A stretch of DNA of 64,000 nt from Oxalicibacterium solurbis. GTDB lineage: Bacteria; Pseudomonadota; Gammaproteobacteria; Burkholderiales; Burkholderiaceae_D. The notes below the pieces were generated by a model. That model saw nothing but the letters and a program-made list of their open reading frames with translations. It did not search any database and was not told the origin of the DNA. This document shows, one piece after another, positions 42,483 to 60,543 of the stretch. Positions within the stretch are counted from its first letter, which is position 1. The number at the start of each line of letters is the position of its first letter. A program made the translations under genes and the position numbers. The stretch spans positions 372,001-436,000 of the forward strand of contig NZ_BMDP01000001.1 in assembly GCF_014635845.1 (NCBI RefSeq), given 5' to 3'.

Positions 42483-42567
42483 CCAATTAACTGTTGCGTA
42501 TGGATGTAGACATTTAGTATGTTGGCTGACTCAAACCAAATATCGTTTCGAAGCCAGGAATTACTTG

Positions 42568-43698: not shown

Positions 43699-45349
43699 AC
43701 GAAAGAAAATTGATCGCTCAACCGATATCTTTACGGACGATGGGAAAATCGTCGATCTCCCGCCAGGATGGGAATTCATTATTGATTGCCAAAATCATGG
43801 CCCAATAAAATTTGACTTCAATTTGTATAGGGATCGCGGGCGTGAAGAAATTGCGGAACAATTACGAAACACAATTTGGAGTATGCGTCACAGCTTGCAA
43901 AATTACACGCTGAAATCCTATGAGAACGTTGGTATACGAAGATTCTGGAAATTCTTAGATTATCTAGCTGCCGAGGGAGAGTTCATCACCCAGTTGAAAC
44001 AAGTTGACAGAAAACTTATAAATCGATTTTTGACTTGGATGGATTTGCAAAATGCAACCAGTGGCGTCAACAGAGGTGAGGCATTTTCCACTCCCAGTAA
44101 GCTTGCGATTTTTATCGCTATAAAATCTATTTTCATATATTGTCAAAAACGAGATCCAGAATCAGTAAATCGGGATCTATCATTTCCTCGCAATCCTTAT
44201 CCCAATTCAGGGCGGCAAGTATCTCACCGCCAGCCATATTCACAAAGCGAACAAAAAATCATACTCAGCGCTTTAAACAAAGATCTAAAAACAATTCACG
44301 AAAGACAAGGAAAAGAACTGACAGGAAATCAAGTTCTTTGCGTGTATTTGCTCGTATTAGCTGCCGCAACCGGTCGCAACCTCACCTCTTTATTGGAACT
44401 TCAACGAGATAGTATTCAGGAGCATGCTCTTCCTGATCGTGAGTTTCTAGTTACATATAAACGCCGTGGCTATAAGTCTCATGCAACGTCAATACGAAAA
44501 GCTGATGAGAGAGAATCAGATTCAATTCTTACTTCGATACCATCCAATGTAGCGGATCATTTTAGATTTTTGTCGAAGTACACCGAGCCATTAATGAAAG
44601 CAGCAGACGAAAGAGATCGCAATTTTGTAATGCTTAAAGTCGTATCGCAAGGTTCAAAGATCGGCCATATTTCGAGAATGAAAAAAATTGATGCAAGTAA
44701 CGCTATCCGAAAATTTTCCATACGACATGATCTTAAAAACGATCGAGGAGAACGATTTCTGATCAGTATCTCGCGCCTTCGCCCGACAATGGCAACCGAA
44801 CTTTATCAGCGCACTGGCGATATAAGAAAGGTTCAAAAAGCACTTGGACACGCACATGTTCAAACTACAGCCCGTCATTATGCAAGCAAACCTTTTGGCT
44901 CCGAACGTAACCATGCATTTGCACTGGATGGCATGGTCAGTAGTTTCATTAAGTTTGAATTAGAAGGAAAAGTTTTTTTAGCCGCTGATGGCAAGATTCC
45001 ATTGGCCAACATCACTAATTTGCTTGGCTCTGGATACAACACCGGAATTGCGAGATGCAGCAATCCATTTCGAGAAAACGAGTCAGTTTGCAATAAATAC
45101 CTGGCCTGTTTTAAATGTCCAAATATGTGCGTTTTTGAAGATGATTTGTGGCGACTTTATAGTTTTTACTACCGCCTACTTTCTGAACGTTCCAAGATTC
45201 ATCCCACTCACTGGCTTAAGACATATGGTCCAATTATTCGCCGCATTGATACGGCCATAGCATCACAATTTCCTCCAGAAAAAATTGAGGCTGCTCGCGA
45301 AAAAGCTCGAGAAACACCGCATCCAACCTGGAAGGATTCCATAGCATGA
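43688..45349 (+). CDS. Tyrosine recombinase, second of trio (TnpB-like)
   Basis: A 553-residue recombinase with a long N-terminal arm-binding region and a catalytic domain carrying Arg in AAATGRNLTSLLEL, a modified second box ISRLRPTMAT (Ser instead of His before LR) and ALGHAHVQTTARHYAS with the nucleophile Tyr. After the catalytic core is a Cys-rich tail (CSNPFRENESVC, YLACFKCPNMC) that could bind zinc. The start at 43688 (MVLRRKKIDRST) overlaps the stop of the first gene by 11 bases. The long length and tail match TnpB of Tn554-like units. Confidence 0.87.
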   Translation: MVLRRKKIDRSTDIFTDDGKIVDLPPGWEFIIDCQNHGPIKFDFNLYRDRGREEIAEQLRNTIWSMRHSLQNYTLKSYENVGIRRFWKFLDYLAAEGEFITQLKQVDRKLINRFLTWMDLQNATSGVNRGEAFSTPSKLAIFIAIKSIFIYCQKRDPESVNRDLSFPRNPYPNSGRQVSHRQPYSQSEQKIILSALNKDLKTIHERQGKELTGNQVLCVYLLVLAAATGRNLTSLLELQRDSIQEHALPDREFLVTYKRRGYKSHATSIRKADERESDSILTSIPSNVADHFRFLSKYTEPLMKAADERDRNFVMLKVVSQGSKIGHISRMKKIDASNAIRKFSIRHDLKNDRGERFLISISRLRPTMATELYQRTGDIRKVQKALGHAHVQTTARHYASKPFGSERNHAFALDGMVSSFIKFELEGKVFLAADGKIPLANITNLLGSGYNTGIARCSNPFRENESVCNKYLACFKCPNMCVFEDDLWRLYSFYYRLLSERSKIHPTHWLKTYGPIIRRIDTAIASQFPPEKIEAAREKARETPHPTWKDSIA

Positions 45350-46713
45350 TTAAAAATCAATTAGATCTTCGTCCTGCAAAAGAATTTTCGATGGAAGAGA
45401 AATTAAACATGCCTGTATCTCTTGCCACTCAACCGGATGGAAAAACGATAGTAGTTAGTCGTTTCAAAGATGAGGTATGGGACTTCTATCCTTATATCCC
45501 GCAAGAAAATCGAGCACGCGGCTCCAAGCATCTGGATTGGCGCATTAACCTTCATGATGGAAGCAAGCTAACTGACGAGCAGCATAAGAATCTTCTTCAT
45601 AGCTCGAAAGAGTTTATATGGTCTTTATTCTCCGAACCTGTTGAAGGGCGCTCCAGGGCTCATATGAACACCCTCATCGGAAAGAAGGAAAGCCTGATTC
45701 CGCTACTGAGATGGATGGTAAAGAATGGAATAGATCAATTCGCTGACTTGGCGGGACGCTCGAATGAGGTCTTACAAGTCATGAGATTGAAAATAGATGG
45801 GCATGAACTAGCAGCCGACTCTACTGTTGCTAAGCGTTTGATTATGTATGAATCTCTTTTTCATCAACGAGACAAAATACATGACGCATTACAGGAAAAT
45901 CCATGGAAACATGAAACTGCAGTTTCTCTGGCAGGGTTAAGTCTCAAAGGTGATAAACGAAAGCCGCGAACTAACTTCATCCCGGATGAAATTGTTCCTC
46001 AAATCGCTAACGCTGCGATTGAATATGTACAAGTGAAATCAAGAAAAATTTTGGCTGGCTTCAATAGCACGAAATTAGCTGGCGAAAAAGTAAGCTCAGT
46101 TAAGGCATCCAGCGATAGAACACCCACAAATAAAACACTAAAAGTAGCCGAATCAAAAGCCAGAACTATTGCAGCTCGCAATGCAGGATTTAAAACATCC
46201 AATGCTCTAAAAACTGAGGTAATTAGGCTAAGAACAGCTTGTTACATCGTAATTTGTATGTTTTCCGGGATTCGAGATTCGGAAATGATGTCGCTTGGTG
46301 CAAATTGCATTGTCAAAAAAAGAAGCCGAGACAATACTTTTGACGTGATCTACATGCATGGCACCATTTATAAAACAGGCAAGCGTCCTAAAGCTTGGCA
46401 AGTTCCACCTATTGTAGTTGAAGCAGTGGATGTATTAAAAACCCTCAGCGCGGGAATGCGTTCAACATTGGCGCTAGAAGAAGTGAAAATTAATGAGAAG
46501 TTAGGTAGCCAGTTTGAAAAAAATAAAGCGGCATTACTAAAACGACTAGACGTAGTACAACGACAAAAAGATAAATTATTTTTAGCACGTTCATATCGCG
46601 TTGGCGCTCCCATTTCCGTACTGACGGGAGCATCAATGTTCAAGGATCTACGAAATTTCTGTGTTTCTCAAGGAATCCGAAATAAAGATGGCTTACCTTA
46701 TCCTTTACATAGC
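45346..46713 (+). pseudogene. Tyrosine recombinase, third of trio, 5' part (456 codons)
   Basis: The 5' part of a third large recombinase, starting with an ATGA overlap to the second gene. It contains the first catalytic Arg in CMFSGIRDSEMMSL and stops artificially (TGA at 46714-46716) where the transposon enters, right after the codons for YPLHS. The missing part, with the H-x-x-R box and nucleophile Tyr, continues at 59941-60540. Rejoined over the duplicated CATAGC the gene encodes about 653 residues. A truncated product may still be made but cannot be catalytic. Confidence 0.9.
46708..46713. repeat. Left target-site duplication CATAGC
   Basis: Identical to 59941-59946. Joining the two sides over one copy restores the frame of the third recombinase (P-L-H-S-H-Q-F-R). 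Confidence 0.88.
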
Positions 46714-46784
46714 TGAGTATTCGCATGAAGTTAGCCATGCATACGCAAGCCAAAGTAACCACTAATGCGCATCACAAAGTAGCC
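46714..46784 (+). repeat. Left terminal repeat array of the 13.2 kb transposon
   Basis: The terminal 12 bp (46714-46725) match the right end perfectly in inverse. Three 10 bp repeats follow at 46727 (GAAGTTAGCC), 46751 (CAAAGTAACC) and 46775 (CAAAGTAGCC), exactly 24 bp apart: likely transposase-binding sites. From 46785 to 46944 no gene is apparent. Confidence 0.88.
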
Positions 46785-46944
46785 GCCTGTTTGCATTGCT
46801 TCTGCACCAAATCGCAGAATTAATGGCCTGTCCTGCTAGGGAAGCTGCATCATGTTTTATGGCGCAGAGGAAAATAGATGTGGAATCTTTCAGAGCTCAA
46901 CAGCTCCGACGACGGGCGTTCACTACGAATTGGATTTTCGGCTA

Positions 46945-47592
46945 TTACCAAGTACCCGAGAGCGCAACAGGGCGCAGTTGGATTGGAATGATTTTCCCTG
47001 TCTCAGTCATCATCGTAAAAGAGTTTTTTATTGATTTAGGTGGGCGAGTAAACCATTGCATACATATCTGTGCAAGATCATCCATAGCCTGAGTACGTAT
47101 ACTGTTTTGTAGAAAGTATGCGGTCAATTCTAGATTTGGCAAAAGATAAAAGACGCCTGCATTCTCAAGGTGGTGATGTGAGGCAGACATGTCTGATTTT
47201 TGTTTCTGAAACATCTTATGGGGCATCTTGGTTTTCATGCCGAGCTTTGCGAAATACCATTCGTATAGGGGAGCAGTAAAATCAATTACATGACTTTCAG
47301 TCTCAACCCAGCAATGAAAAGCTTTCGTTGAACTCTGGAGTTCGCCATCCTCATTTAATTCGGCAAAGCTTAGAACGGGCTCTGATGAAGATCCGATGCG
47401 AATAATGCCCGCTCCCATTCTAGGAGCGGCTTCAATACCGAAACATTTTTCGATTAGTAATGCTCCTATAGTGTTATAAAAAAGACAGGAGGCTACTTCT
47501 CGGGCATCGACGCTTTGGTGTACGGAATGAATTACTCTAAAAATGCGTTGATACTCAGGCAGCGTGATAATCATTTTTTTCTTGTTTTTCAT
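46945..47592 (-). CDS. Hypothetical protein, DUF2026/transglutaminase-like
   Basis: A 215-residue protein resembling the DUF2026 family. A Cys in REVASCLFYNTIGALLIEKC, a His in AFHCWVETESHVIDFTAPLY and the Asp of VIDFTAP form the C...H...D order of papain/transglutaminase-fold hydrolases. Catalysis is therefore possible but unproven. It is the first cargo gene, transcribed towards the left end and divergent from the HEPN gene. AT-rich codon use. An internal start at M7 is also possible. Confidence 0.7.
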   Translation of the reverse strand: MKNKKKMIITLPEYQRIFRVIHSVHQSVDAREVASCLFYNTIGALLIEKCFGIEAAPRMGAGIIRIGSSSEPVLSFAELNEDGELQSSTKAFHCWVETESHVIDFTAPLYEWYFAKLGMKTKMPHKMFQKQKSDMSASHHHLENAGVFYLLPNLELTAYFLQNSIRTQAMDDLAQICMQWFTRPPKSIKNSFTMMTETGKIIPIQLRPVALSGTW

Positions 47593-47726
47593 GATCTTCT
47601 TGTCCCCTATGTTAAAAAACCTGTAGGTCTGTTCAGTCTACGATCGTTGACCGTCACTTCCACTGCAGCTTGTGATTATTATTCATAAAGTCATATCGCT
47701 TTGGCCGCCATATAAAAGGAAAGTAT

Positions 47727-49277
47727 ATGCCCACAAGCGCGGAGCGCTTTAAACGAACATCAAGCCAGCTTAACGCTTTGCTAGATCAAGATCCTAGTGA
47801 GGCAGTTAGGCAAGCACGGGCTATTAATCTGAATCTTCCAGATGAGCTTGAAGGCATCAATTTGATGGGGTTATCTGCTGCTGTCTTAGTCGATGGAGGA
47901 GTATTGGCTAAAGATATGAGTGCCATCTTGGAGGGGCTTTCCTTGTATCGAGAACTCCATAAATATTTTCCAACTGATGATGTCACGTATAACCTTGCTA
48001 ATGCCCTTATCGCAAGCGTCGGACATCCCCCGCAACAAGACTGGTTGATTCATCAAGAACTGACTAGAGCGGATCGCGCTGAAGCAAGACGATGCTTATG
48101 GAAAGTCGCCAACAATGAATCTGCTGATAGATCTTTGCAGTCACAGGCATGGACCAATTTAGCTAATCAGTTTAGTGCTAGCTATCGACTGGGCGAGGCA
48201 CATGACGCTCGCTTAGTCGCACTGGAAATGGATCCAAGCAATGGTGTTGCGGCAATTGGCATAGCACGTGAATTGCTATGGCTATATAAACAAGGCAACT
48301 GTTCAGAAGTAACGCTTACAGAAGCTGCGATGATGGCAAAGGTAGCCACACAGCATTACGATCAGGTCGTCCAATATGCGGGGGTACAATTTGCTAAAGA
48401 GATTTCAGAATTTGCTGGAAGATTTGAAAATCCACCACCACGTGTAGCACACGAAGATGATTTTGTTTATTGGGTTGAGCGTGAAAGGTTGACTCTTGCT
48501 CCGAGTGTTGAGCTTGTTGATCCATCTCTCGGAAAAATGGATTGGCTCATGCTCCCTGGAATTCTAGAGAGACAGAAAAATTCAGGGGGAGCTCCGCCTC
48601 CGATATTTGCGATGTTTAACTCATTGAAGAGTGATTTCATTCTTGCACGAGATTTAGCGTGGTGTGCCACACAAGAAGGTGTATGGCCAACAACGGGGCG
48701 ATTTTCTGACACCCTTGATTATGCTAACTATGGCCCAGATTCATCTGCCCTTATATTGGCTCATCGCACATCCCTCGATCTTCTCGATAAGGTTGCTGTG
48801 ACGGCCAACCATTACTTCGAGTTTGGAGAAAATCCAAGAGACGTCACTTTTGGGAATTTATGGCGTGGAAAACCAGACGTTAACGGGATAAGGCCACTAT
48901 CCGAACCAATCAGAAAAACAATCTTGGGGGGAGTTACTGCACTGTATGGTCTTGTTGAGCTCGCAGAAGATTACGATAACTCTACGGGTATATTGCGTTC
49001 CCAAAAAAATCTAAGGAATGCGGGTACTCATCGGTTTGTTGTTCTTCATGACCTTGGTGATCCAGACAATAGTAGGAAAGCTCCTGAAATTGAGCGTCAC
49101 CGATTAGAGGAGTTTAGAAAGGAGATGTTAAAAGCGTTAAGAATTGCTAGGTCTGCAATTCAAATGCTTACTCTTTCAATTACTCAACATGAGAAAGGCC
49201 TAACAGAACGAATAGAAGGCGTTATTGGCTCAATGGTTGTCCCAGATCATGACTATATTAGAGGACGTGATCAGTAA
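47727..49277 (+). CDS. TPR-HEPN protein (LA2681-like)
   Basis: A 516-residue protein. The first 230 residues look like TPR-type helical repeats (QAWTNLANQFSASYRLGEAHDARLVALEMDPSN in parts). The C-terminal part carries the HEPN ribonuclease motif R-x4-H as RNAGTH (R430 to H435), in a context that resembles the LA2681-like HEPN family. HEPN proteins of this kind are often toxins or abortive-infection effectors cutting RNA. It is followed after 23 bases by a DEDD exonuclease gene. Function in defence or toxin-antitoxin is inference. Confidence 0.75.
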   Translation: MPTSAERFKRTSSQLNALLDQDPSEAVRQARAINLNLPDELEGINLMGLSAAVLVDGGVLAKDMSAILEGLSLYRELHKYFPTDDVTYNLANALIASVGHPPQQDWLIHQELTRADRAEARRCLWKVANNESADRSLQSQAWTNLANQFSASYRLGEAHDARLVALEMDPSNGVAAIGIARELLWLYKQGNCSEVTLTEAAMMAKVATQHYDQVVQYAGVQFAKEISEFAGRFENPPPRVAHEDDFVYWVERERLTLAPSVELVDPSLGKMDWLMLPGILERQKNSGGAPPPIFAMFNSLKSDFILARDLAWCATQEGVWPTTGRFSDTLDYANYGPDSSALILAHRTSLDLLDKVAVTANHYFEFGENPRDVTFGNLWRGKPDVNGIRPLSEPIRKTILGGVTALYGLVELAEDYDNSTGILRSQKNLRNAGTHRFVVLHDLGDPDNSRKAPEIERHRLEEFRKEMLKALRIARSAIQMLTLSITQHEKGLTERIEGVIGSMVVPDHDYIRGRDQ

Positions 49278-49300
49278 CTAACCGCATCTCGCTAGAGCTT

Positions 49301-49765
49301 ATGAATGTATTTATCGACACAGAATTCACAGATTTTCTCGACCCTCAGCTTATTAGCTTAGGTATGGCATCCGAGTATGGTGAGGATTTCTATGCCGAAG
49401 TGCCGTACTCTGATCATGCATGCTCTGCATTTGTTCGTGAAGCAGTTGTACCGCTGTTGCGCAAGATTCCACATTCTTACTACTCGCGTCCTAATGTTCA
49501 TTTAGAGATCATCAAATGGCTAGAGATCGTCCGTAGAGACAAAGAGGATGTGTATATCTGCGTGGATTACCAGACTGATTGGGATTTGTTTTGTGACGTA
49601 CTAGATTACCGCGTACCGCCATGGTGTCACTACAAACTAGTGAGTAACGAAATTGTCGAGCTGATGCTTTACGATTTCTTCAAAGCGTCTCAATTACCTG
49701 AGCATCATGCACTTTATGATGCTCAAGCGAACCGGCACGCGTACCGTGCGCCATTCTCGAAATAA
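49301..49765 (+). CDS. DEDDh 3'-5' exoribonuclease-like protein (Rv2179c type)
   Basis: A 154-residue RNase H-fold exonuclease. Exo I is IDTEFTDF (D6, E8), Exo II lies in DYQTDWDLF (D93/D95) and Exo III in HHALYDAQANRHAY (H136, D140), the order of a DEDDh nuclease. The closest recognisable type is the Rv2179c-like 3'-5' exoribonuclease domain. It follows the HEPN gene in the same direction, so it could act on the same RNAs, or act as an antidote; neither is shown. Confidence 0.8.
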   Translation: MNVFIDTEFTDFLDPQLISLGMASEYGEDFYAEVPYSDHACSAFVREAVVPLLRKIPHSYYSRPNVHLEIIKWLEIVRRDKEDVYICVDYQTDWDLFCDVLDYRVPPWCHYKLVSNEIVELMLYDFFKASQLPEHHALYDAQANRHAYRAPFSK

Positions 49766-49786
49766 AACACGGTCATGAATTTGTCA

Positions 49787-49826
49787 TATAATTCAATTAT
49801 TATTGAAATGTGGAATTATTGAAATG
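49787..49826 (+). promoter_or_regulatory. arsR promoter and ArsR operator
   Basis: A TATAAT-like -10 at 49787-49792 runs into a perfect palindrome TTCAAT-TATT-ATTGAA (49792-49807), typical of ArsR sites. A 12 bp stretch ending in it (ATTATTGAAATG, 49799-49810) is repeated at 49815-49826. The site precedes the arsR start and would block transcription when ArsR is bound. Confidence 0.7.
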
Positions 49827-49838
49827 AAGGATAGTTTG

Positions 49839-50174
49839 ATGAAAGATTCGCAGGTCATTGCAGCGCTGTCTGCCCTAGCTCAGGAATCACGTCTTGGGAT
49901 TTTTCGTGTCCTGGTGCAATGCGGGCCGGAAGGCATGGCCGCTACCAAGATCGGCGATCACTTATCAATACCGCCTTCATCCATGTCGTTCCACCTCAAA
50001 GAACTGACGCATGCTGGACTCATCGTCTCCCGAAATGAAGGCAGATTTGTAATTTATTCGGCAAATTTTCAGACTATGAATGGCGTGATCGGATTCCTTA
50101 CAGAGAACTGCTGTGGAGGCAATGTATGCACGCCTGGTTCGGCTTGTACGGCTGAGTCAGCAAGTCAGTCTTGA
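49839..50174 (+). CDS. arsR: Arsenic-responsive repressor ArsR
   Basis: A 111-residue winged-helix repressor. The start at 49839 (MKDSQVIAALSALAQESRL) is set by an AAGGA ribosome-binding site at 49827-49831; an upstream ATG at 49824 lacks one. DNA-recognition helix IPPSSMSFHLKELTHAGLI is typical. The C-terminus has a cysteine group (ENCCGGNVC and GSACTAE) that probably binds As(III) instead of the CVC motif of the plasmid R773 protein, as in other ArsR lineages. It heads the ars operon and probably represses it. Confidence 0.92.
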   Translation: MKDSQVIAALSALAQESRLGIFRVLVQCGPEGMAATKIGDHLSIPPSSMSFHLKELTHAGLIVSRNEGRFVIYSANFQTMNGVIGFLTENCCGGNVCTPGSACTAESASQS

Positions 50175-50206
50175 GCTCCAAACTAATTTAAATCGAGGAT
50201 ACTTTT

Positions 50207-50719
50207 ATGAGCAATACAGACGCCGCAAAGACATACAACGTGCTGTTTCTCTGCACAGGCAACTCAGCCCGCAGCATCATGGCCGAAGCTTTTCTGACCT
50301 CGATCAGTAAAGGACGCTTCCGTGGCTTCAGTGCCGGAAGTCATCCAGGAGGCACAGTCAATCCGTTTGCGATCGAACAGATCGCAGACACCGGCTACCC
50401 GATTACGAACCTGCGCAGCAAAAGCTGGGATGAATTTGCGGCTGCTGGTGCGCCGCAGATGGATTTCATTATTACTGTCTGCGACAACGCTGCTGGCGAA
50501 GTCTGTCCGATCTGGCCTGGACATCCAGTCTCTGCTCACTGGGGCTTTGAAGATCCAGCGGCGGCTGTCGGTACCGATGAAGAAAAGCGTGCGGTGTTCT
50601 CCAAGGTTGCGAAGCAGATCGTTTCCCGTATCAATCTGCTTAACAATCTGCCGATTCACCAGCTCGAAAAAACAGCTATCAAGCACGAGATGGATGCTAT
50701 CGGCTCGAAACAGTCGTAA
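50207..50719 (+). CDS. arsC: Arsenate reductase, LMW-phosphatase (thioredoxin-type) class
   Basis: A 170-residue reductase of the low-molecular-weight phosphatase fold. The P-loop is LCTGNSARS with catalytic C16 and R22. C92 and C100 (TVCDNAAGEVC) are the pair that would pass the disulfide to thioredoxin. It turns arsenate into arsenite for export by ArsB. GAGGA lies before the start. It lies between arsR and arsB. The operon carries a second, unrelated arsenate reductase domain in the ArsC-ArsH fusion. Confidence 0.9.
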   Translation: MSNTDAAKTYNVLFLCTGNSARSIMAEAFLTSISKGRFRGFSAGSHPGGTVNPFAIEQIADTGYPITNLRSKSWDEFAAAGAPQMDFIITVCDNAAGEVCPIWPGHPVSAHWGFEDPAAAVGTDEEKRAVFSKVAKQIVSRINLLNNLPIHQLEKTAIKHEMDAIGSKQS

Positions 50720-50779
50720 TAAAACGGGGCGCACATCGCCCCATTTTTCTTCTACTTCTCAGTCACCAAGGACGTTTCC

Positions 50780-52066
50780 GTGCTTACCGCTTTACTGATT
50801 TTCTTCATCACGCTTACCCTCGTAATATGGCAACCCAAAGGGCTCGGCATTGGCTGGAGCGCAATGGGTGGTGCATTGGCAGCGCTGGCGTTTGGGGCAA
50901 TTCAACTTTCTGATATTCCAGTCGTATGGGATATCGTCTGGAACGCAACGGCCACTTTCATTGCCATCATCATCATTAGCCTTCTACTCGACAAAGCGGG
51001 ATTCTTTGAATGGGCAGCCTTGCACGTAGCCCGATGGGGCCGCGGCAATGGTCGCAAGCTGTTTGTATTGCTGGTCTTACTTGGTGCGGTTGTCGCGGCT
51101 TTGTTTGCGAACGATGGTGCAGCTCTGATATTGACGCCCATCGTCATTGCCATGCTAGTTGCCTTGAAATTCTCAGGACGTGCCACGCTGGCATTTGTGA
51201 TGGCAGCGGGTTTCATTGCTGATACGGCAAGCTTGCCCCTTGTTGTATCTAATTTAGTGAACATCGTTTCTGCAGATTATTTCGGCATTGGATTTGCACA
51301 GTATGCGGCGGTCATGGTGCCGGTGAATGTCGTCTCGGTCGGCTCGACTTTGCTTGTGCTGTTTTGGTATTTCAAACGCGATATTCCTGCCAGCTATGTT
51401 GTTAGCGATGTCAAAGAGCCTAACAGTGCCATTCAAGATCATTCGACATTCGCAGCCGGTTGGTGGGTGTTAGGTCTTTTACTAATTGGTTTTTTCTGGC
51501 TTGAGGATGCGATCGGTGTACCAATCAGCGTCGTTGCCGGAGTCGGCGCGCTGATTCTCTTGCTGGTAGCTGGGAAAGGACAGGTGATCTCGACACGCGC
51601 TGTCGTTCGGGATGCACCGTGGCAGATCGTTTTCTTCTCTTTAGGAATGTATCTGGTCGTTTATGGTTTGCGCAATGCAGGCCTGACGGACTATCTCTCG
51701 AATCTGCTGAATGAATTTGCGCACTACGGCGTATGGGGTGCGGCGCTGGGAACAGGCTTCGTGACTGCGATACTGTCTTCGATCATGAATAACATGCCGA
51801 CTGTACTCATCGGCGCGCTTTCAATTGATGCTAGCAATGCCGAAGGCGTTGTACGTGACGCAATGATCTATGCGAATGTCATTGGTAGTGACTTAGGGCC
51901 CAAGATTACGCCAATAGGGAGCTTGGCAACCTTGCTGTGGTTGCATGTGCTTTCAAATAAAGGCATCAAGATTACCTGGGGCTACTATTTCCGTGTCGGT
52001 GCAGTGCTGACGTTACCAGTACTTTTCATCACGCTCTGTGCCTTGGCCATAAGACTCAGTATCTAA
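50780..52066 (+). CDS. arsB: Arsenite efflux pump ArsB
   Basis: A 428-residue integral membrane protein with about 12 membrane segments, the length of ArsB (429). Motifs such as [39 protein letters not shown] and [20 protein letters not shown] are diagnostic. It pumps As(OH)3/antimonite out using the proton gradient; no ArsA ATPase gene is present. The start codon is GTG, preceded by AAGGA with a 7-base gap. Confidence 0.94.
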
Positions 52067-52108
52067 AGCTGCCCTTATCTAGAATTCCACATTAGAAACG
52101 TTAAAAAT

Positions 52109-53245
52109 ATGCACGTGAAGATATTTCACAACCCAGATTGCGGAACATCAAGAAATACGTTGGCACTCATCCGACATGTCGGTATCGAACCTGAGGTCAT
52201 TGAGTACTTGAATAGCCCCCCTGCGCGGGACGAACTACGCTCAATGATCAAGAAAGCGGGACTGTCTGTTCGAGATGCGTTGCGCCAAAAAGGTACGCCC
52301 TATGCAGAGCTGGGCCTAGATAACCTAGCGATCGACGACGACGCATTACTGGATGCAATGATGGCGCATCCGATTTTGATCAATCGTCCGTTCGTCATTA
52401 CGCCGATTGGCACACGGTTATGCCGACCGTCGGAGTTAGTGCTGGACATCTTGCCTCCATCCCCAGCCAAAGCGTTCATCAAGGAAGAGGGTGAACTTGT
52501 CATTAACGATCAAGGACAACGCGTTTCGCATTCGATTGATGGGCTCCCGAATATCTCGAAAGAGCTTTTTAGGCCACCACAGGAAGCCGATTTTTTGGTG
52601 CAACCGAGAGCAAGTCATCGGCCTCGGTTTCTGCTGTTGTACGGCTCAGTTCGCGAGCGTTCGTTTAGCCGCTTGGTGACGATGGAAGCAGCCAGGCTTC
52701 TCGAAGCGATGGGTGGGGAGGTCAGAATTTTTGATCCGAGAGGCTTGCCGCAACCGGATAGCGAAACCGATTCACACCCCAAGGTACAGGAGCTACGGGA
52801 CCTAGCACAGTGGGCCGAAGGCATGGTCTGGTGCTCTCCCGAACGCCACGGTGCCATGACCAGCATTCTCAAAGCGCAGATCGACTGGATTCCACTTTCA
52901 ATCGGAGCCGTGAGGCCAACTCAAGGAAAGACACTTGCCGTCATGCAGGTCTCTGGCGGATCTCAGTCCTTCAATGCCGTCAATCAAATGCGAATCTTGG
53001 GGCGCTGGATGCGCATGATCACGATCCCGAATCAATCTTCTGTGGCTAAAGCGTTTCTGGAGTTTGACGATGCTGGCCGGATGAAGCCATCCGCTTACTA
53101 CGATCGTATCGTTGATGTGATGGAAGAACTGTTCAAATTCACTTTAATGACGCGAGATGTTGCCGATTACCTAGTTGACCGTTACAGCGAGCGCAAAGAG
53201 AGTGCTGACGAACTAAGTAAGCGCGTTAATCAAGTATCGATATAA
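52109..53245 (+). CDS. ArsC-ArsH fusion protein
   Basis: A 378-residue fusion in one open frame. Residues 1-139 are a glutaredoxin-coupled ArsC with C11 in [11 protein letters not shown] and R59, R93 and R106, equivalent to E. coli C12, R60, R94 and R107 with a constant offset. Residues about 145-375 are Ars[15 protein letters not shown], then the FMN-binding loop [10 protein letters not shown] (179-188) and [20 protein letters not shown]. ArsH is an NADPH-FMN oxidoreductase reported to oxidise trivalent organoarsenicals. The two arsenic activities are usually separate genes. The start has only a weak ribosome-binding site, 42 bases after arsB. Confidence 0.9.
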
Positions 53246-53263
53246 GCCATCTCATACCAGATC

Positions 53264-53294
53264 GCCAGTTCACCCTCACTCAGGACGAACTGGC
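53264..53294 (+). terminator. Hairpin after the ArsC-ArsH gene
   Basis: A perfect 8 bp stem GCCAGTTC/GAACTGGC with a 15-base loop, 18 bases after the stop. There is no T tract, so termination is uncertain. Confidence 0.4.
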
Positions 53295-53314
53295 AGGCGA
53301 GTATGCTTGCGATA

Positions 53315-54070
53315 CTACTTTGAAGATCTCGTTTTCTTCGTGTTCACGCTTTTGTTCCTTCTGAGAGATTCTCCGCTTAGCTCAAGGAGATAAGAGCTGT
53401 GAGCAATCCGATCCATGATTGCATCCGCGACCGTTTTATTATCCAGCTCATCATGCCAATGACTTATGGGGAATTGGCTGGTAATGATCATTGACCTCTT
53501 ACCCAAACGTTTATCGACCAGCTCCAGCAAATCGTTCTGGGCTCTTTTCGATAAAGGTTCAATCCCCCAGTCATCTAGTATCAGCAAATCAATCTTATTG
53601 AGCTGCTCAAGTCGCAAACTGAAAGATCCTGACGCTCTTGCAGAAAGCAGTGATTCCATCAATATGGGAACGCGATAGAATTGGCTAGACAATCCCAGCC
53701 GGCATGCATAGTTGGCCAGCGCACACGCTAACCAAGTCTTACCCGTACCGGTTGGCCCTGTGATTACCAAATTGTGCTGCTTCCGCACCCAATCCAAAGT
53801 GGATAGCGAGAGCATCAATGCCTTGTCTAATCCACGTGGCGATCGATAATCGATATCTTCGATTGAAGTGCTCAGAGGGAGTTTTGCCTTTTTTAAGAGT
53901 ATCTGCAGGCGTTTGTTTTCCCGTACAGTCGTTTCATGATCCACCATGTTGCGGACACGCTGTTCAAATGGCATGTCATGCATTGTTGGATTTCCAATCT
54001 GGCGCTCAAACTCTGCCGCCATACCGAATAATTTAAGTGTATTGAGCTGCTCAATAGTATTGTTGATCAT
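53315..54070 (-). CDS. istB: IS21-family helper ATPase IstB
   Basis: A 251-residue AAA+ ATPase of the DnaC/IstB family: Walker A GPTGTGKTW (105-113), Walker B LLILDDWGIEPLS and the sensor-type SQFPISHWHDEL block. IstB works with the transposase IstA and controls target selection in IS21-like elements. It overlaps istA by 4 bases (ATGA). It is downstream of the ars operon and antiparallel to it. Confidence 0.93.
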   Translation of the reverse strand: MINNTIEQLNTLKLFGMAAEFERQIGNPTMHDMPFEQRVRNMVDHETTVRENKRLQILLKKAKLPLSTSIEDIDYRSPRGLDKALMLSLSTLDWVRKQHNLVITGPTGTGKTWLACALANYACRLGLSSQFYRVPILMESLLSARASGSFSLRLEQLNKIDLLILDDWGIEPLSKRAQNDLLELVDKRLGKRSMIITSQFPISHWHDELDNKTVADAIMDRIAHSSYLLELSGESLRRNKSVNTKKTRSSK

Positions 54071-55632
54071 GATTTCATTTCCTTATCTGTAATTTGTAGA
54101 AAATCGCTGTAATAGTTGGCACCTCTGATGTTTTGATGCGGCGTGTCTTTACTTTCTTCTGGAACGTCCTGTGCCAGTAGGCGATCGATATTCCTCGAAA
54201 GGATGTTTCGTAGTTCCTGTGTGCCGGTAATATTGTTTTTTACGGCATACGAACAAGCCTCTTCTAGGCGAGTTTTCCCATAGCTTTTAAAAAGATTTTT
54301 CATTGCTTGGGTAATCCGATATCCGAGCAAGTACCCTCGGATCTTGGCTAACTGAGCCTGCAGTAATACGGCCGTGTTCGGGCCAACGTCTGTTGCCCAT
54401 GCAAGTGCTTCGGATTCGGACCATTGCAAAAGGGCCAGGTGTGTGGGGTGCCTATGCTCATTCAGGGTGGTCGTCTGTTCGGCAGCGAAGCTGCGTACAT
54501 GCGTGACTAAACAGTTTCCTCTGTAAAGTAAATCCAATGAGTGTCCAGATAAGCAGTACTCGAACTCCATTCCCTTCAGATGATAGGGAACACTGTAAAA
54601 GTGCCGATCGACGCACACGTGATAGTCCTGTCCTGCACGGACCTTGCCCCACTCGGCAAACTCATACCGTTGAGTAGGCAATGGCATAAGTGTTGGCCGC
54701 TCCAATTCAAGCCATGTGCTAAACCGCGATCCAGGTAGATTTTGAAATGGCCGAATATTCAATTTTTCCAAGAGAATGCCGATTTCTCGGTTCATCTCTG
54801 CGAGTGAAAAGAATTTTCGGCTACGTAGGGAAAACAAGATCCAGCGCTGTGTCAACAACACAGCGGCCTCTGCTTTTGATTTGTCCTTAGGCTCTCGTGG
54901 ACGAGCAGGAAATGGATGTGTCCCGTAGTAACGGCACATCGCGCTGTAAGATTCGTTAATCGTTGGATCAAACCTGTCCGCTTTAATTACGGCCGCTTTC
55001 AGATTGTCCGGCACGATAATGCGTGGCACGCCGCCGAAAAACTCAAACATTCTTGTGTGGGACGCAATCCAGTCTTTAGATGTTTGGCTCCAAGTTGCTT
55101 CGCAAAACGTGTATTTTGATCCGCCTAATACACCGACGAATATCTGTACCTTCTTCAGTTCGCCGGTGTCTGGGTCGGTCACACACAAGGTCTTTCCAGA
55201 GTAGTCGACAAAGGCTACCTCTCCAAAGACCGCTGTTTGCCGCATCGATACCTGCAACGTCTTCTTAAAGAGGTTGTACAGACGGCAGTACTGTGAATAG
55301 CTGATGTGGTTATGAGGCGGGACCGTCTCTTGCCACTCCTGATGCAGGATGGCCAGCGTCGCCCCTTTTTTCTGCAACTCGGTATGGACTTTTGGGAAGT
55401 CGATGATTGGTTTTTTGTCGCTGGAATTTGGCAGTGCAGCATTCAGGAACAATGTGTTTTCCAACTTTTCATTGTCCATATGAGCTGGCAGTGGCCAAGG
55501 CAACTTTGATTTTTTGAATCTTTCCAGATAGTTAGTTACTGTTCTGCGATTGACTCTAAGCAGCTTTGCCGTAGCTCGATGGGATAACTCTTTTGTAAAA
55601 ATGCACTCAAGGACATCGCGAATTTTTCGCAT
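54067..55632 (-). CDS. istA: IS21-family transposase IstA
   Basis: A 521-residue DDE transposase. An N-terminal HTH (SHRATAKLLRVNRRTVTNYL) precedes the catalytic core with D in AFVDYSGKTLC, D in IIVPDNLKAAV and E in PKDKSKAEAAVLL. The start at 55632 is supported by an AGGAG ribosome-binding site; a longer start at 55665 lacks one. Both IstA and IstB look intact, so the pair may be active. Whether it moves only itself or also the 13.2 kb element is open. Confidence 0.92.
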   Translation of the reverse strand: MRKIRDVLECIFTKELSHRATAKLLRVNRRTVTNYLERFKKSKLPWPLPAHMDNEKLENTLFLNAALPNSSDKKPIIDFPKVHTELQKKGATLAILHQEWQETVPPHNHISYSQYCRLYNLFKKTLQVSMRQTAVFGEVAFVDYSGKTLCVTDPDTGELKKVQIFVGVLGGSKYTFCEATWSQTSKDWIASHTRMFEFFGGVPRIIVPDNLKAAVIKADRFDPTINESYSAMCRYYGTHPFPARPREPKDKSKAEAAVLLTQRWILFSLRSRKFFSLAEMNREIGILLEKLNIRPFQNLPGSRFSTWLELERPTLMPLPTQRYEFAEWGKVRAGQDYHVCVDRHFYSVPYHLKGMEFEYCLSGHSLDLLYRGNCLVTHVRSFAAEQTTTLNEHRHPTHLALLQWSESEALAWATDVGPNTAVLLQAQLAKIRGYLLGYRITQAMKNLFKSYGKTRLEEACSYAVKNNITGTQELRNILSRNIDRLLAQDVPEESKDTPHQNIRGANYYSDFLQITDKEMKS

Positions 55633-55798
55633 GTCGACTCTCCTGTTGACCATGGTTATATGCATCGCTGTCGGAAACAGCGATGTTCATGAGCACCACA
55701 CAGACGTGGCTAGGCACTTCGAAATTTCAAAGTGTTGACAGAGGATTTTGGAAGGGAGATACTGAGCGCGGATTATGCATTTCCAAACGCTGTACAAG

Positions 55799-55830
55799 AG
55801 GCCTGTGAGTTGACGCTCACAGGCCTTTGT
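55799..55830 (+). terminator. Plus-strand intrinsic terminator right of istAB
   Basis: An 11 bp perfect stem AGGCCTGTGAG/CTCACAGGCCT with a six-base loop and TTTGTTGTTT after it. No plus-strand gene precedes it except the ars operon on the far side of istAB. It may be the original ars terminator, pushed away when the IS inserted. Confidence 0.7.
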
Positions 55831-55860
55831 TGTTTCTACCTTCGCTTTAGGTAGATTAGG

Positions 55861-56169
55861 TCATGGTTTTTCTCCCTCAGTAACTGCCTTTGAAGAAGGT
55901 GGCATAACCATATTGCTGACGGCACGTTCTCGTTGCTCGGCCAGCCAGATAGCAACATCCTTCACCAGCGCAAATTTGCCCTTTCGATTCTCAATATCGA
56001 AAATTGGTATCGGTACTGTCTTGCGCACAATAGCTTGCCGGAATGCTTCTTTAGATGGGTAACACAAGACCTGACGCAAATCGTCGTTAGAGATCATCGG
56101 CCCATGGCGGTGCATTAACTCTCTTTCCAGCAACACGGCCAGTGGTTCATCAAACATTAGTTGGGTCAT
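55861..56169 (-). CDS. Small protein of unknown function
   Basis: A 102-residue protein starting at MTQLMFDEPLAV (ATG 56169). SNDDLRQVLCYPSKEAFRQA followed by KTVPIPIFDIENRKGKFAL and KDVAIWLAEQRERA looks like a small helix-turn-helix DNA-binding protein of the AlpA/excisionase-like type, which reads a site and ends with an 'airway' WLAEQR helix. It could regulate the transposon or be a plasmid-derived accessory factor; no specific function is claimed. Confidence 0.5.
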   Translation of the reverse strand: MTQLMFDEPLAVLLERELMHRHGPMISNDDLRQVLCYPSKEAFRQAIVRKTVPIPIFDIENRKGKFALVKDVAIWLAEQRERAVSNMVMPPSSKAVTEGEKP

Positions 56170-56362
56170 GGTGTTGACGGTCACTCTCAGTCACGCGGTT
56201 GCTAGGAAGATAGCAAGCTTAGCAATGAAGGTTTTAAGTGGAAACCTCTATGTTGACTCTTAATTTCACTCTTTTTGTTAACCGTGAGAGTTTGTAAGTC
56301 ATTGAATATATTGGTTATGCTCTTTATATTTCGTCCTTTCCTAATACTTTCTCGATTTGTAA

Positions 56363-57250
56363 ATGCCACTTCAGCGATCAAAAAGGCGTGATGATGCAGT
56401 AGACAAGATCCGCACCATTAATTGGTTTAGATGTATTGGGGACCATCTGGACATTTATATCCCCCGTGAAATCCAACGATTTTTGCAACCTGGGAAAACA
56501 GGAACTGGCGTTAATAGCATCCGTAACAATCGCTACCTCGAATATTCGGAAGGCAAACATGTACCAAGACCGGATCTTGTAGAGCATGCGGATCGATTGG
56601 TGGATGGCTCAAGCTGGGAGCTCAATCATGTTCTCTGGTCGGTATTACGTTGTTCCGGTCCCATACATGGAAAAGAACACAAATGGATTCGTGAACTGAG
56701 CGGTGATATTCCAACGATAGTAATTGAAGCAAATAATGTAATTCGCTTGCGAGGTGATCGACATTACCTTGGCTCGTTTGAGCGACGTGCAAGTCTGGAC
56801 AGTCTGACTGCTCTGACAATTCTGCTGCGTATGAATCATGAGCGCCAAGACTTTGAGCAGGTATGGGAGTGTGCGAAAAGTATCTTCCGTGTACTGCTAA
56901 TGATAGGCAATGACCTTAACGAACGCTGCATAGGAGCGTTGATGTTTGATCTATATGCAGAGCGTGTTTTCTGTCTAGCGAGGTACAACGGCAACCGAAT
57001 ATATGCTGAGAAATCTAACTATCCGGCCATGTCCCGCGTCTTGTATGAGTTAGCAGAACATCTGAGAGAAAAGAATTCTCACGTAAAAGATAGAAAATCA
57101 AAGAATCACTACTTAATTCAGATACTCAGTTCAGTGCAGATAGGAGAATTCTTTCAGCCATTGATTGGACCGGATCTAGATATCGGAGCGCCGACCAAAG
57201 CGTATTCTGAATGGCTCTCAGTAAGGAATTCCGAAACTGCTGAGTATTAG
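56363..57250 (+). CDS. Protein of unknown function in resistance transposon
   Basis: A 295-residue soluble protein starting with MPLQRSKRRDDAVDKIRTI. Basic N-terminus, then IGDHLDIYIPREIQRFL and KTGTGVNSIRNNRYLEYSEG, and a helical C-terminal half. No signal peptide, membrane segment or catalytic motif was recognised. It stands alone between istAB and the chr operon with 178 bases upstream. Base composition is like the other cargo genes. Confidence 0.6.
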   Translation: MPLQRSKRRDDAVDKIRTINWFRCIGDHLDIYIPREIQRFLQPGKTGTGVNSIRNNRYLEYSEGKHVPRPDLVEHADRLVDGSSWELNHVLWSVLRCSGPIHGKEHKWIRELSGDIPTIVIEANNVIRLRGDRHYLGSFERRASLDSLTALTILLRMNHERQDFEQVWECAKSIFRVLLMIGNDLNERCIGALMFDLYAERVFCLARYNGNRIYAEKSNYPAMSRVLYELAEHLREKNSHVKDRKSKNHYLIQILSSVQIGEFFQPLIGPDLDIGAPTKAYSEWLSVRNSETAEY

Positions 57251-57333
57251 CATAAAGTTTGATACCAACAGCATCACTACGTTGGTGCTGTATTTGTCAA
57301 TGTCAGCTGTCGGCCATAAGCGAGAAATGTATC

Positions 57334-57361
57334 GATGCGGCCCCTAAACGATGGCCGCATC
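57334..57361. terminator. Hairpin at the end of chrA
   Basis: A perfect 9 bp inverted repeat GATGCGGCC/GGCCGCATC with a 10-base loop, 5 bases after the chrA stop and 84 bases after the convergent orphan gene. T tract is poor on both sides, so termination is likely but not certain. Confidence 0.5.
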
Positions 57362-57365
57362 GCCA

Positions 57366-58742
57366 TCAAGGGAGTACTGTCTTCAATAAGAGTCCGACTA
57401 GCGCACTCACACCAATAACCTGAATCACATTACGTTTGTAGCGTACTAACGCGATAGCAGCGATGACAGCCATCATTGCCGCAATCCAGTCGAACGAACC
57501 TTTGAATCCTTGAGGCCACAGAACATGGTAGGCAAAGAACACCGCAAGATTGAGGATGACGCCGACTACAGCTGCAGTGATGCCCGTCAACGGTGCTGTG
57601 AACTTGAGATTGCCGTGAGTCGACTCGACTAAAGGGCCGCCCGCAAGAATGAAGATGAATGAGGGCAGGAAGGTAAACCAGGTCACCAGAACTGCTGCCG
57701 TCACACCTGCAACGAACTTCAAGTCGGCACCGAATACAGATTGCACATATGCACCGACAAATCCCACAAAGGCGACAACCATGATGAGCGGCCCGGGATT
57801 CGCCTCACCCAAAGCCAAACCATCAATCATCTGCGTCGGTGTCAGCCAGTTGTAATGACCAATCGCACCCTGATAGATGTAAGGAAGCACGGCATATGCA
57901 CCACCAAACGTCAGCAACGCTGCTTTGGTAAAGAACCATCCCATCTGCGTAAGCAGATGGGACCATCCAAACTGCAGCGTCAGGAATGCCATTGGTACGA
58001 CCCAAAGGACAGCGCCGACGGCAACGATTTTTAGCAGACCGGACCAGCGAAACCTCGCATGTTCCGGTGGTGGCGTATTGTCATCAATCAGCGCTGGGCC
58101 ATACGATTTCTTCGCAGCACCATGCCCACCACCCACGGTGAATTTTTCAGGGACATAACGGCCGCCTAGGTAGCCAATCACTGCAGCTGTCAGAACGATG
58201 ACAGGAAACGGCACATTCAGTGCAAAGATGGCGACAAAGGAAGCGCCTGCAATCGCCCACATCCAACTGTTCTTCAATGCTCTTGAGCCAATGCGATGCA
58301 CGGCATGTACCACCACCGCAGTAATCGCGGGCTTGATGCCGTAGAAGAGACCTGCAATCAGTGGCACATGTCCGTACGCGATATACAGCCAAGACAGCGT
58401 AATCAGAAACATAAGTCCCGGTAATACAAAGAGGACGCCAGCTGCAACGCCTCCCTTTGTTTTATGCATGAGCCAGCCCATATAGGTGGCCAGCTGCTGC
58501 GCTTCCGGCCCGGGTAGAAGCATGCAGTAATTCAACGCATGCAAGAAGCGCCTTTCGCTTATCCAGCGACGCTGCTCAACAAGTTCTCGATGCATCAACG
58601 ATATTTGCGCCGCTGGTCCGCCAAAACCAAGGAAGCCGAGTTTGAACCACAGTTTCAAAGCTTGAATAAAGGTCACCTGTGATGGTGCCTCTGACTCGCC
58701 ACCAATTTCATTCGAATCGATAGCATTCGTGCTGGTACTCAT
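57366..58742 (-). CDS. chrA: Chromate efflux transporter ChrA
   Basis: A 458-residue membrane protein of the long, two-domain CHR family. The N-terminal domain has the signature FGGPAAQISLMHRELVEQRRW and the C-terminal one FTKAALLTFGGAYAVLPYIYQ. These are the duplicated CHR motifs with GGP and TFGG. It exports chromate from the cytoplasm. The start overlaps the chrB stop (ATGA), so translation is coupled. Confidence 0.94.
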   Translation of the reverse strand: MSTSTNAIDSNEIGGESEAPSQVTFIQALKLWFKLGFLGFGGPAAQISLMHRELVEQRRWISERRFLHALNYCMLLPGPEAQQLATYMGWLMHKTKGGVAAGVLFVLPGLMFLITLSWLYIAYGHVPLIAGLFYGIKPAITAVVVHAVHRIGSRALKNSWMWAIAGASFVAIFALNVPFPVIVLTAAVIGYLGGRYVPEKFTVGGGHGAAKKSYGPALIDDNTPPPEHARFRWSGLLKIVAVGAVLWVVPMAFLTLQFGWSHLLTQMGWFFTKAALLTFGGAYAVLPYIYQGAIGHYNWLTPTQMIDGLALGEANPGPLIMVVAFVGFVGAYVQSVFGADLKFVAGVTAAVLVTWFTFLPSFIFILAGGPLVESTHGNLKFTAPLTGITAAVVGVILNLAVFFAYHVLWPQGFKGSFDWIAAMMAVIAAIALVRYKRNVIQVIGVSALVGLLLKTVLP

Positions 58743-59671
58743 CCTGAAATCTCCTGCTCAAACGTTGTGACGAGTGCATCGAAAATGCCGGATGCAATCA
58801 TGAGTAATTGGTCGTCGTCGTGGACGGTGGCGCGGATGCCGACGAGAACACGCTCAATACCAGCTGCTTCTGGTGGTTGAATGCCACCCGCATCGATGAA
58901 ATGAACAATACTTCCCAAGCGATTCAGCGTCGGAGACTCCAGCCCAAAGCTTGTGAGCAATGTTTCGAATGTCACTTTCGCACCGACATGCGAGAACGTC
59001 GCACCGTCGAAGTCGAAGCCCAGGGCATCAGGTGGACAATCAGACGGAGACTGAAGCCAAAGAATTTTGGCTTTAGGGTCGATATATCGACGGATTAACC
59101 AAGCGGATGCTAATCGGTCCATCCAAGGACGCGCACGCGTTGCCCAGACCCGCTTTTGGTAATCCTTGACCAATAACTTTGCGATGTCGCCTGATATGGC
59201 ATGCGGCTCGTCGGGAGACAGCGTACGAATGACGGCGTTCTCCAGTTCGAGCAAGGCTGCGCTTGTTTGCCGCTGCGCCTCATCCGCAAAGAAGTCAATC
59301 GTGCATAACTGTTCGAACGACTTGCGTAACTTGCGTGATTGTTTCAGCGTATCTGCGGCCGTATCGTCGGTTAGCCCAGCCCTCGCTTGTGAAATCGCAT
59401 CCGCAAGTTCTGCAAATTCCGCGGAACGGTCGAACATCCCAGCAAAAACGTCACGGTCAGCATGCGTGCTGAGCAGATAGGTTGTGCCACCGCTTTTCTC
59501 GATGTCTTCGGCTATATCAGCTAGCAAAACTTTGCCGCCATCGCCCTCGGGCATGAGGTAGACGCCATCCCTTAAGACAGCCGCGCCAGAGTTTTTAAGG
59601 GTGCGCCATGCCCGCATACGTGCGGTGGCGTTCTCCGTAGGGAGAGTGAGAATGAGTAGAATCCAGTTCAT
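58739..59671 (-). CDS. chrB: Chromate resistance regulator ChrB
   Basis: A 310-residue ChrB. The N-terminus MNWILLILTLPTENATARMR and the block RAWRTLKNSGAAVLRDGVYL are characteristic; the C-terminal domain has RARPWMDRLASAWLIRRYID and a Cys/Asp/His-containing second half. ChrB has been described as the chromate-sensing regulator of chr operons. It is the first gene of chrBA and is preceded by two tandem palindromes that look like its operators. Confidence 0.92.
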   Translation of the reverse strand: MNWILLILTLPTENATARMRAWRTLKNSGAAVLRDGVYLMPEGDGGKVLLADIAEDIEKSGGTTYLLSTHADRDVFAGMFDRSAEFAELADAISQARAGLTDDTAADTLKQSRKLRKSFEQLCTIDFFADEAQRQTSAALLELENAVIRTLSPDEPHAISGDIAKLLVKDYQKRVWATRARPWMDRLASAWLIRRYIDPKAKILWLQSPSDCPPDALGFDFDGATFSHVGAKVTFETLLTSFGLESPTLNRLGSIVHFIDAGGIQPPEAAGIERVLVGIRATVHDDDQLLMIASGIFDALVTTFEQEISG

Positions 59672-59674
59672 TAT

Positions 59675-59708
59675 GTAGAATTAGCTACCAATATGTAGTT
59701 AACTCTAC
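59675..59708 (-). promoter_or_regulatory. Tandem ChrB operators
   Basis: Two 14 bp palindromes GTAG-N6-CTAC lie at 59675-59688 and 59695-59708, 20 bp apart centre to centre (two helical turns). The near one starts 3 bases before the chrB ATG, so binding would cover the promoter and start. No Shine-Dalgarno is visible, and the mRNA may be leaderless. Confidence 0.7.
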
Positions 59709-59869
59709 CGTAAACATGGATGAGTGCAAGAACTATTTATTCAAACAACGATTGCCTGCTTTGGGCGATAGCTGACATTGAAAGCGCTCATCCACTCGGA
59801 CAATCATCAATGCAAATTCATGCTGCTGAATAATCAAAAATCAAGTGGTGCACTACCGACGCGGCAGAT

Positions 59870-59940
59870 GGCTACTTTGAAATGCGAATCGCTGGTTACT
59901 TTCTAACGCGGCTATGTGGTTACTTTCGTGCGAATACTCA
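59870..59940 (-). repeat. Right terminal repeat array of the 13.2 kb transposon
   Basis: The last 12 bp (59929-59940) match the left end in inverse. Three 10 bp repeats read inward on the minus strand at 59918, 59894 and 59870 (start of GGTTACTTTC, GGTTACTTTC, GGCTACTTTG), again exactly 24 bp apart. From 59709 to 59869 no gene is apparent. Confidence 0.88.
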
Positions 59941-59946
59941 CATAGC
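59941..59946. repeat. Right target-site duplication CATAGC
   Basis: The second copy of the 6 bp sequence at 46708-46713; the recombinase frame continues directly from it. Confidence 0.88.
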
Positions 59947-60540: not shown

Positions 60541-60543
60541 ATC

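Follow-up and report, generated by a model that had tools for sequence, protein, structure and literature searches.

A 13-kb transposon with IS21-type transposition genes, two further conserved genes and metal-resistance cargo in a recombinase gene of Oxalicibacterium solurbis

How did 13 kb of DNA with arsenic and chromate genes come to lie within the third of three adjacent recombinase genes in Oxalicibacterium solurbis? The locus lies in a stretch of 64,000 nt of contig NZ_BMDP01000001.1 (assembly GCF_014635845.1, positions 372,001 to 436,000), referred to here as the window. A preliminary description, made from the sequence alone, had taken the insertion to be a complete resistance transposon, bounded to the base and accompanied by a duplicated target; it named neither an IS21-family mover nor a wider group of such cargo carriers. 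This anatomy was borne out. The transposon proper, read directly from the sequence, occupies 46714-59940 (13,227 bp), and the span 46708-59946 comprises the element with both copies of its target (Table 1). It is very probably a single-unit transposon of the IS21 type that is moved by its own transposase IstA and helper IstB and carries metal-resistance cargo.

The exact 12-bp inverted ends and the CATAGC duplication reported previously were read directly at 46708-46725 and 59929-59946. The terminal sequence, TGAGTATTCGCA at 46714-46725, is present as its perfect reverse complement at 59929-59940, and the TG/CA termini noted earlier are those of IS21 ends of the TG...CA form. Inverted similarity between the ends extends over 76 nt with 71% identity, because each end includes three repeats, approximately AAAGTARCCA...TTCGCA, with a 24-bp spacing. 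No other perfect 12-bp inverted pair in the window has a 6-bp duplication on its flanks. The same pattern occurred on average 0.12 times (maximum 1) in 60 dinucleotide-preserving shuffles, a control that takes account of neither the 24-bp repeats nor the interrupted gene. Search of the O. solurbis genome with the end pattern gave 11 matches, six of which are the ends of three elements, and the control gave 0.

The left part of the interrupted gene ends in the residues HS followed by a TGA codon supplied by the element, and the right part resumes at HSHQFRRT. An uncut relative was found in genome G140 (L056), which belongs to the same genus, as one stop-free frame of 653 codons. When the two parts were searched alone, the left aligned through residue 455 of this frame (45%) and the right from residue 454 (70%). 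At the junction, a single pair YA of the relative corresponds to two copies of HS in the window, the outcome expected of a 6-bp duplication. Both halves thus align end to end on a frame that is continuous across the insertion point, in agreement with the earlier proposal that the third recombinase is split at HSHQFRRT and that its halves rejoin. Any match to the left part was found in 9 of 196 genomes, the O. solurbis genome included, and the uncut relative is one of these. A search of 40 genomes with the left flank (2,408 bases) gave no empty site for the window insertion at the nucleotide level; two genomes matched, namely the source genome itself and G140 (205 bases, 65%). Insertion into the third recombinase is established at the level of the predicted proteins.

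The core of the element comprises istA, istB, a small prtN-like gene that adjoins istA on the same strand, and a gene of the opposite direction, here named orfX. IstA scored 251 bits against NF033546 (cut-off 160) and IstB 247.9 bits against NF038214 (cut-off 200). Residues D154, D220 and E266 of IstA align with D124, D187 and E233 of IS5376 IstA, which form its catalytic triad (PMC10122671). In the IS21 scheme, IstA requires two full repeats, and the end that is joined is a terminal CA (PMC10122671); 5-bp duplications are known from numerous members, with no strong target preference (PMC11208146). The ends and the duplication in the window fit this scheme, and the element has the IS21 features of an IstA, an adjacent IstB, multi-repeat ends (three repeats at 24 bp) and a short duplication (6 bp). 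From this anatomy and that of the relatives described below, IstA and IstB would act on the outer ends and move the whole 13 kb. Encoded in the middle of the element, they would recognise the 24-bp-spaced repeats of either end, bring the two ends together and cut beside the terminal CA. The 13.2 kb would then be joined in a single piece to a target whose strands had been cut 6 bp apart, and the gaps would be filled in as CATAGC. The products of orfX and the prtN-like gene, which lie at the istA end of the core, would most likely regulate the element.

The preliminary description had proposed a search for the ends and 24-bp repeats in other genomes, and elements of this kind do occur elsewhere. 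Ten elements, the window's included, have both ends located and range from 3.6 to 26 kb. Copies with other boundaries would have spoken against the earlier account, but the relatives are bounded in the same way: a target duplication of 4-7 bp was present in nine of the ten end pairs, and 137 of 20,000 random site pairs showed a 4-8 bp match. All four core genes are present in eight of the ten elements. Three like-ended elements belong to the O. solurbis genome itself, the window's and two on contig C5. The larger of the latter (10,691 bp, duplication ATGTCC) carries genes for an FTR1-type permease, a MerR regulator, a cation-efflux protein with a heavy-metal domain and signal peptidase II, which we take to be a lead-resistance set of the pbr type. 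The smaller (L037 11737-15352, G000:C5; 3,616 bp, duplication CTTTAG) lies ~650 bp away, is without the four core genes and is likely a non-autonomous rider; it carries arsR, arsC, a glyoxalase-type gene and an apparent start of a pump gene, recognised by eye with no Pfam match.

The remaining elements differ in cargo and size. That of G140 (7,744 bp, duplication ATAA) carries genes read by eye as a sulfate permease and a universal stress protein; that of G245 (16,605 bp, CTACAT) has chrA, chrB and a nickel-type transporter, and that of G291 (11,153 bp, CAGAG) a two-component system, DUF347 proteins, cytochrome b561 and others. Arsenic genes are among the cargo of the element on P. shirazica plas1 (26,046 bp, ATTGATG), in which istA lies in two frames, and ars genes are carried by that of G247 (9,395 bp), which has no duplication and is without orfX and prtN. 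The element of plasmid Rms149 (record 10243-30753; 20,511 bp, AGGCGC) carries type I secretion genes and a gene for a very large calcium-binding protein, and that of P. aeruginosa pWTJH36 comprises 17,091 bp (GTCTAAC). Within the available stretches, ends were not found in Comamonas, Xanthomonas, pNY8709, G624 and G562; G101 gave one candidate end and no second, and in G114 the left end was not found. Genome G1254 (L122-L124) contains two stretches, 99.9% alike, that hold orfX, prtN and the beginning of istA and are cut by contig ends; their common border showed no end of the type described here. Annotation of the plasmid records examined shows no more than a transposase and helper of the IS21 family, surrounded by unrelated genes.

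Evidence of movement came from plasmids. In the sister plasmid pWTJH17, the sequences that flank the pWTJH36 element meet with a 7-base overlap, a true empty site with a single GTCTAAC. The same element is present at other flanks in pSE5369-NR, the copies being 100% and 99.97% alike over 8.2 and 7.4 kb, and pSE5369-VIM from the same P. aeruginosa strain as pSE5369-NR carries another copy (L054/L109 and L112). The flanks of these two copies match only across the plasmids, the 6-bp sequence CTCGAC pairing one end in NR with the opposite end in VIM, and GTTGGG the two ends that are left. The plain reading is two insertions, with a 6-bp duplication each, followed by exchange between the copies through the element, since the duplications pair only across the two plasmids.

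Several observations weigh against a single-unit transposon moved by its own IstA and IstB. The element shares with IS21, IS5376 and IS1491 the IstA and IstB proteins, multi-repeat TG...CA ends and a short target duplication, but IS21 members are described as having two genes between their ends (PMC10122671), whereas the window element has 13 (with open reading frames, ORFs, as chosen here), including two extra core genes and metal-resistance cargo. Two simple IS21 copies that were measured are 2.6-2.7 kb against its 13 kb, and IS21-family elements of Ralstonia are listed at 1.7-1.8 kb (table in PMC7371123). With 13 genes between the ends, the element is a transposon with an IS21-type mover and not a plain insertion sequence (IS). 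Furthermore, the G247 element is without a duplication and that of G140 has one of just 4 bp; the istA of plas1 is in two frames; neither pSE5369-NR alone nor pSE5369-VIM alone shows a flank duplication; and the Rms149 end pair was chosen by a score that rewards a duplication, the other pairs having been found by their end sequences. The 3,616-bp element, being without istAB, indicates that like ends exist without genes of their own. Movement by IstAB is predicted from sequence, and no transposition was observed.

An unlikely alternative is that an older element ended just past orfX and that the chromate genes and the present right end were added in a second event. The elements of G140 and G114 indeed have an end 104 and 84 bp, respectively, beyond orfX, and in the window a copy of the terminal 12 bp with one mismatch lies at the 3' end of orfX (57241-57252) and matches the left end at 17 of 19 positions. 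However, this copy is not followed by 24-bp repeats, its orientation is wrong for an old right end, and ~6 chance matches with <=2 mismatches are expected in the window. Cargo likewise separates orfX from the element end in the Rms149 relative, and the present outer ends share one duplication either way. Nearby, 57297-57316 is a 20-nt inverted match (90%) to 59762-59781. The matches at 57241-57252 and 57297-57316 may be remnants of a former end or may be due to chance.

It is less probable still that istAB is a passenger IS within a larger element moved in trans by another transposase. Action in trans is made plausible by the like-ended element without istAB in the same genome, and plain IS21 copies do enter elements of this kind, as an IS1491-like copy sits inside the pSE5369-NR copy. 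Yet a second pair of such ends around istAB alone was not found in the window, and a separate inner IS was rejected on this ground. Moreover, istAB accompanies orfX and prtN in elements that differ in cargo and site, the three ORFs listed outside the core of the 7.7-kb G140 element are not transposases as judged by eye, and the outer ends show the IS21 multi-repeat form. Chance repeats or an assembly artefact can practically be dismissed: elements of this kind are indeed interrupted by contig ends in other genomes (G114, G1254), but the shuffle control, the uncut relative and like elements in nine other places speak against it.

Table 1. Features of the transposon, its interrupted target gene and the neighbouring recombinase genes in the window
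Feature	Position	Strand	Evidence
ginA-like tyrosine recombinase	41938-43698	+	Pfam Phage_integrase; order as in PMC5385486
ginB-like tyrosine recombinase	43634-45349	+	Pfam Phage_integrase
ginC-like recombinase, left part, interrupted by the transposon, to which the final codon belongs	45346-46716	+	no Pfam family
Target duplication CATAGC, left copy	46708-46713	none	sequence
Left end: TGAGTATTCGCA(TG), then three 24-bp-spaced repeats	46714-46799	+	
DUF2026 protein (cargo)	46945-47592	-	Pfam PF09641
Protein with LA2681-like HEPN domain (cargo)	47727-49277	+	Pfam PF18733
RNase H / RNase AS-like exonuclease (cargo)	49301-49765	+	NCBIfam below cut-off; PHROG 2259; no Pfam family
ArsR-type regulator (cargo)	49803-50174	+	Pfam HTH_20; 57-65% identity to genes in like settings of two other elements
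Arsenate reductase of low-molecular-weight-phosphatase type (cargo)	50207-50719	+	Pfam LMWPc; reductase role inferred from setting
ArsB arsenite pump (cargo)	50780-52066	+	Pfam ArsB, E 7e-159
Fused ArsC (glutaredoxin type) - ArsH-like protein (cargo)	52109-53245	+	Pfam ArsC + FMN_red; second half matches annotated arsH
IstB, AAA+ helper of IS21 type (core)	53315-54070	-	NF038214 above cut-off; PF01695
IstA, DDE transposase of IS21 type (core)	54067-55665	-	NF033546 above cut-off; D154, D220, E266
PrtN/excisionase-like small protein (core)	55861-56184	-	PF11112 below cut-off; PHROG 1300 excisionase, E 1.5e-4
orfX, unnamed; N-terminal domain possibly Xre/Cro-like helix-turn-helix (core)	56363-57250	+	weak fold matches
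ChrA chromate transporter (cargo)	57366-58742	-	Pfam
ChrB (cargo)	58739-59671	-	Pfam
Right end: TGAGTATTCGCA(CG), then three 24-bp-spaced repeats	59855-59940	-	
Target duplication CATAGC, right copy	59941-59946	none	sequence
ginC-like recombinase, right part	59941-60540	+	alignment to G140 relative
ginD-like small protein	60544-61044	+	39% identical to small gene beside the uncut relative

Only weak and scattered Pfam matches were obtained for OrfX, none of them convincing (best 0.0014, in one of nine A1 members), and its assignment to a known family was rejected. No match was found in NCBIfam, PADLOC, PHROGs or the PDB sequences. A fold search with the whole model gave nothing at E <= 0.001 (best 0.44), and that with the N-terminal domain gave nothing significant (best 2.1); one of the five models of this domain was fairly confident (74.2) and the others scored 39-49. 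Among the fold matches listed for the N-terminal domain, 20 of 34 are helix-turn-helix or DNA-binding proteins by name, including a designed protein and human EDF-1. The predicted N-terminal helices, together with these non-significant repressor-like matches, suggest that OrfX may be a DNA-binding regulator.

IstA-like matches were present in 75 of 294 family genomes. orfX, for which order, class and phylum genomes and plasmid records were searched, is rare, with matches in 9 of 399 genomes of the order, 3 of 369 of the class, 3 of 398 of the phylum and 11 of 72,556 plasmid records. The source genome is among the matches in all three genome sets, and the class and phylum counts share G951. Among 46 loci, orfX was found in 16, all of which also have prtN, and the other 30 have neither, four of these having <1 kb of upstream sequence; this link is not an unbiased count, because several orfX loci were fetched via orfX. 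An istA match was found at the orfX loci of G562, G624, Comamonas, Rms149, Xanthomonas, pNY8709 and G1254; there was none in the stretch available at those of G390, G434, G440, G504, G539, G553, G951, Acinetobacter and Advenella, and the check for an istA neighbour covered the orfX loci other than H30 and G978. On an IstA tree of 39 rows, from which seven of the 46 loci with <330 residues were dropped, the distribution of orfX needs 5 changes, as compared with a mean of 12.1 in shuffles, and 0 of 500 shuffles were as low. orfX is therefore clustered on the tree. As a mark of one IstA clade it was rejected, given the 5 changes and the near relatives L003 and L010 without orfX.

The arsenic and chromate genes flank the conserved core on both sides. 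The term resistance transposon used previously thus holds in that resistance genes are present, although the Pfam matches assign them to arsenic and chromate and not to drugs. The ArsC-ArsH-like fusion comprises 378 aa, and G247 has two neighbouring genes instead. The DUF2026, HEPN and exonuclease genes beside the left end (46945-49765) gave no match in PADLOC and possibly represent cargo with a so far unrecognised role in defence or RNA repair. The G245 and C5 elements also contain exonuclease or HAD (RNA-repair type) genes.

GInt elements are defined by ginABC, three tyrosine recombinase genes in a row, followed by the small ginD; neither excision nor integration proceeds without the full set of four gin genes, GinC is frequently annotated as hypothetical, and further features are att repeats of 10-11 nt and an AT-rich 3' end (PMC5385486). 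The three recombinase genes and the small gene in the window match ginABCD in order and sizes, Pfam calling only the first two integrases; this likeness is to the published description of the operon. The true start of the ginA-like gene is probably downstream of 41938. The island lies inside comEC, the C-part of which is at 41052-42482 and the N-part, recognised by eye, in L115, ~27 kb away. The features concerned lie at 41938-61044 of the window and 1833-6736 of L115, and the island would measure ~27 kb. A clear direct repeat was not found at the comEC junctions examined, where the longest shared word is 9 nt. The island carries genes of the Thoeris (window 61604-62979) and Gabija (L115 1833-5437) systems. 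By its gene order the recombinase island would fit a GInt. Landing in ginC would strand such an island and, because the transposon cut ginC, the GInt-like defence island has probably been immobilised by the insertion.

The window element is best classed among cargo transposons, with a mover of the IS21 type, and ISs that carry cargo are already a known idea. A transporter IS (tIS) is one with passenger genes unrelated to movement (PMC9330008, PMC3129680), and the elements described here share with tIS an IS-type mover and unrelated genes between the ends. They differ in cargo of up to 26 kb and in two accessory genes conserved with istAB, and the tIS passages in those two sources name no IS21 example. 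Tn6050 of Cupriavidus metallidurans carries a sulfate permease and a universal stress protein (PMC2864759), as does the G140 relative from reading by eye, but the core of Tn6050 is tnpA-tnpR, like that of the mercury transposons Tn4378/Tn4380, and hence a different mover. The Rms149 insertion has in common with the window element the four core genes, the type of end repeat and a 6-bp duplication; however, its IstA is only 33% identical and its cargo is different. Plasmid Rms149 itself is reportedly described by Haines et al. 2005. A multi-gene IS21 unit transposon was not found in the literature searched, as far as its text was covered, most subscription journals, ISfinder/TnCentral and the Rms149 paper being outside this coverage.

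With Tn7 and Mu, the element shares a Mu-type DDE transposase, an AAA+ helper, large cargo and repeated sites at the ends. Tn5053-type transposons are grouped with Tn7 and Mu, having likewise a DDE transposase, an AAA+ helper and large cargo. Tn7-like elements feature the TnsA endonuclease and the target selector TnsD/TniQ. No TnsA, TniQ or resolvase family was detected with Pfam among the 13 ORFs of the window element, and membership of Tn7 was rejected for lack of matching families. The combination of a Mu-type DDE transposase and an AAA+ helper is described as common to IS21, Tn7 and Mu (PMC10122671, PMC11208146), and repeated binding sites are described for the ends of Tn7 and Mu (PMC10122671).

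With its two genes, IS21 serves as a model in studies of AAA+-controlled transposition, and Tn7 and Mu are its larger relatives. A group of IS21-type elements that span 7.7-26 kb, are exactly bounded and share two additional conserved genes bridges IS21 to Tn7 and Mu, and raises the testable question of what a two-gene IS requires to become a cargo transposon. Closer relatives may be recognised by ends near TGAGTATTCGCA with 24-bp repeats, beside orfX-prtN-istAB. Tentatively, this IS21-type lineage may represent a further cargo carrier in the style of Mu and Tn7, in which orfX and the PrtN-like gene would control the transposase or choose the target, and which would move metal-resistance, defence-like and secretion genes, in elements of up to ~26 kb, across beta- and gammaproteobacteria, with non-autonomous copies riding along.

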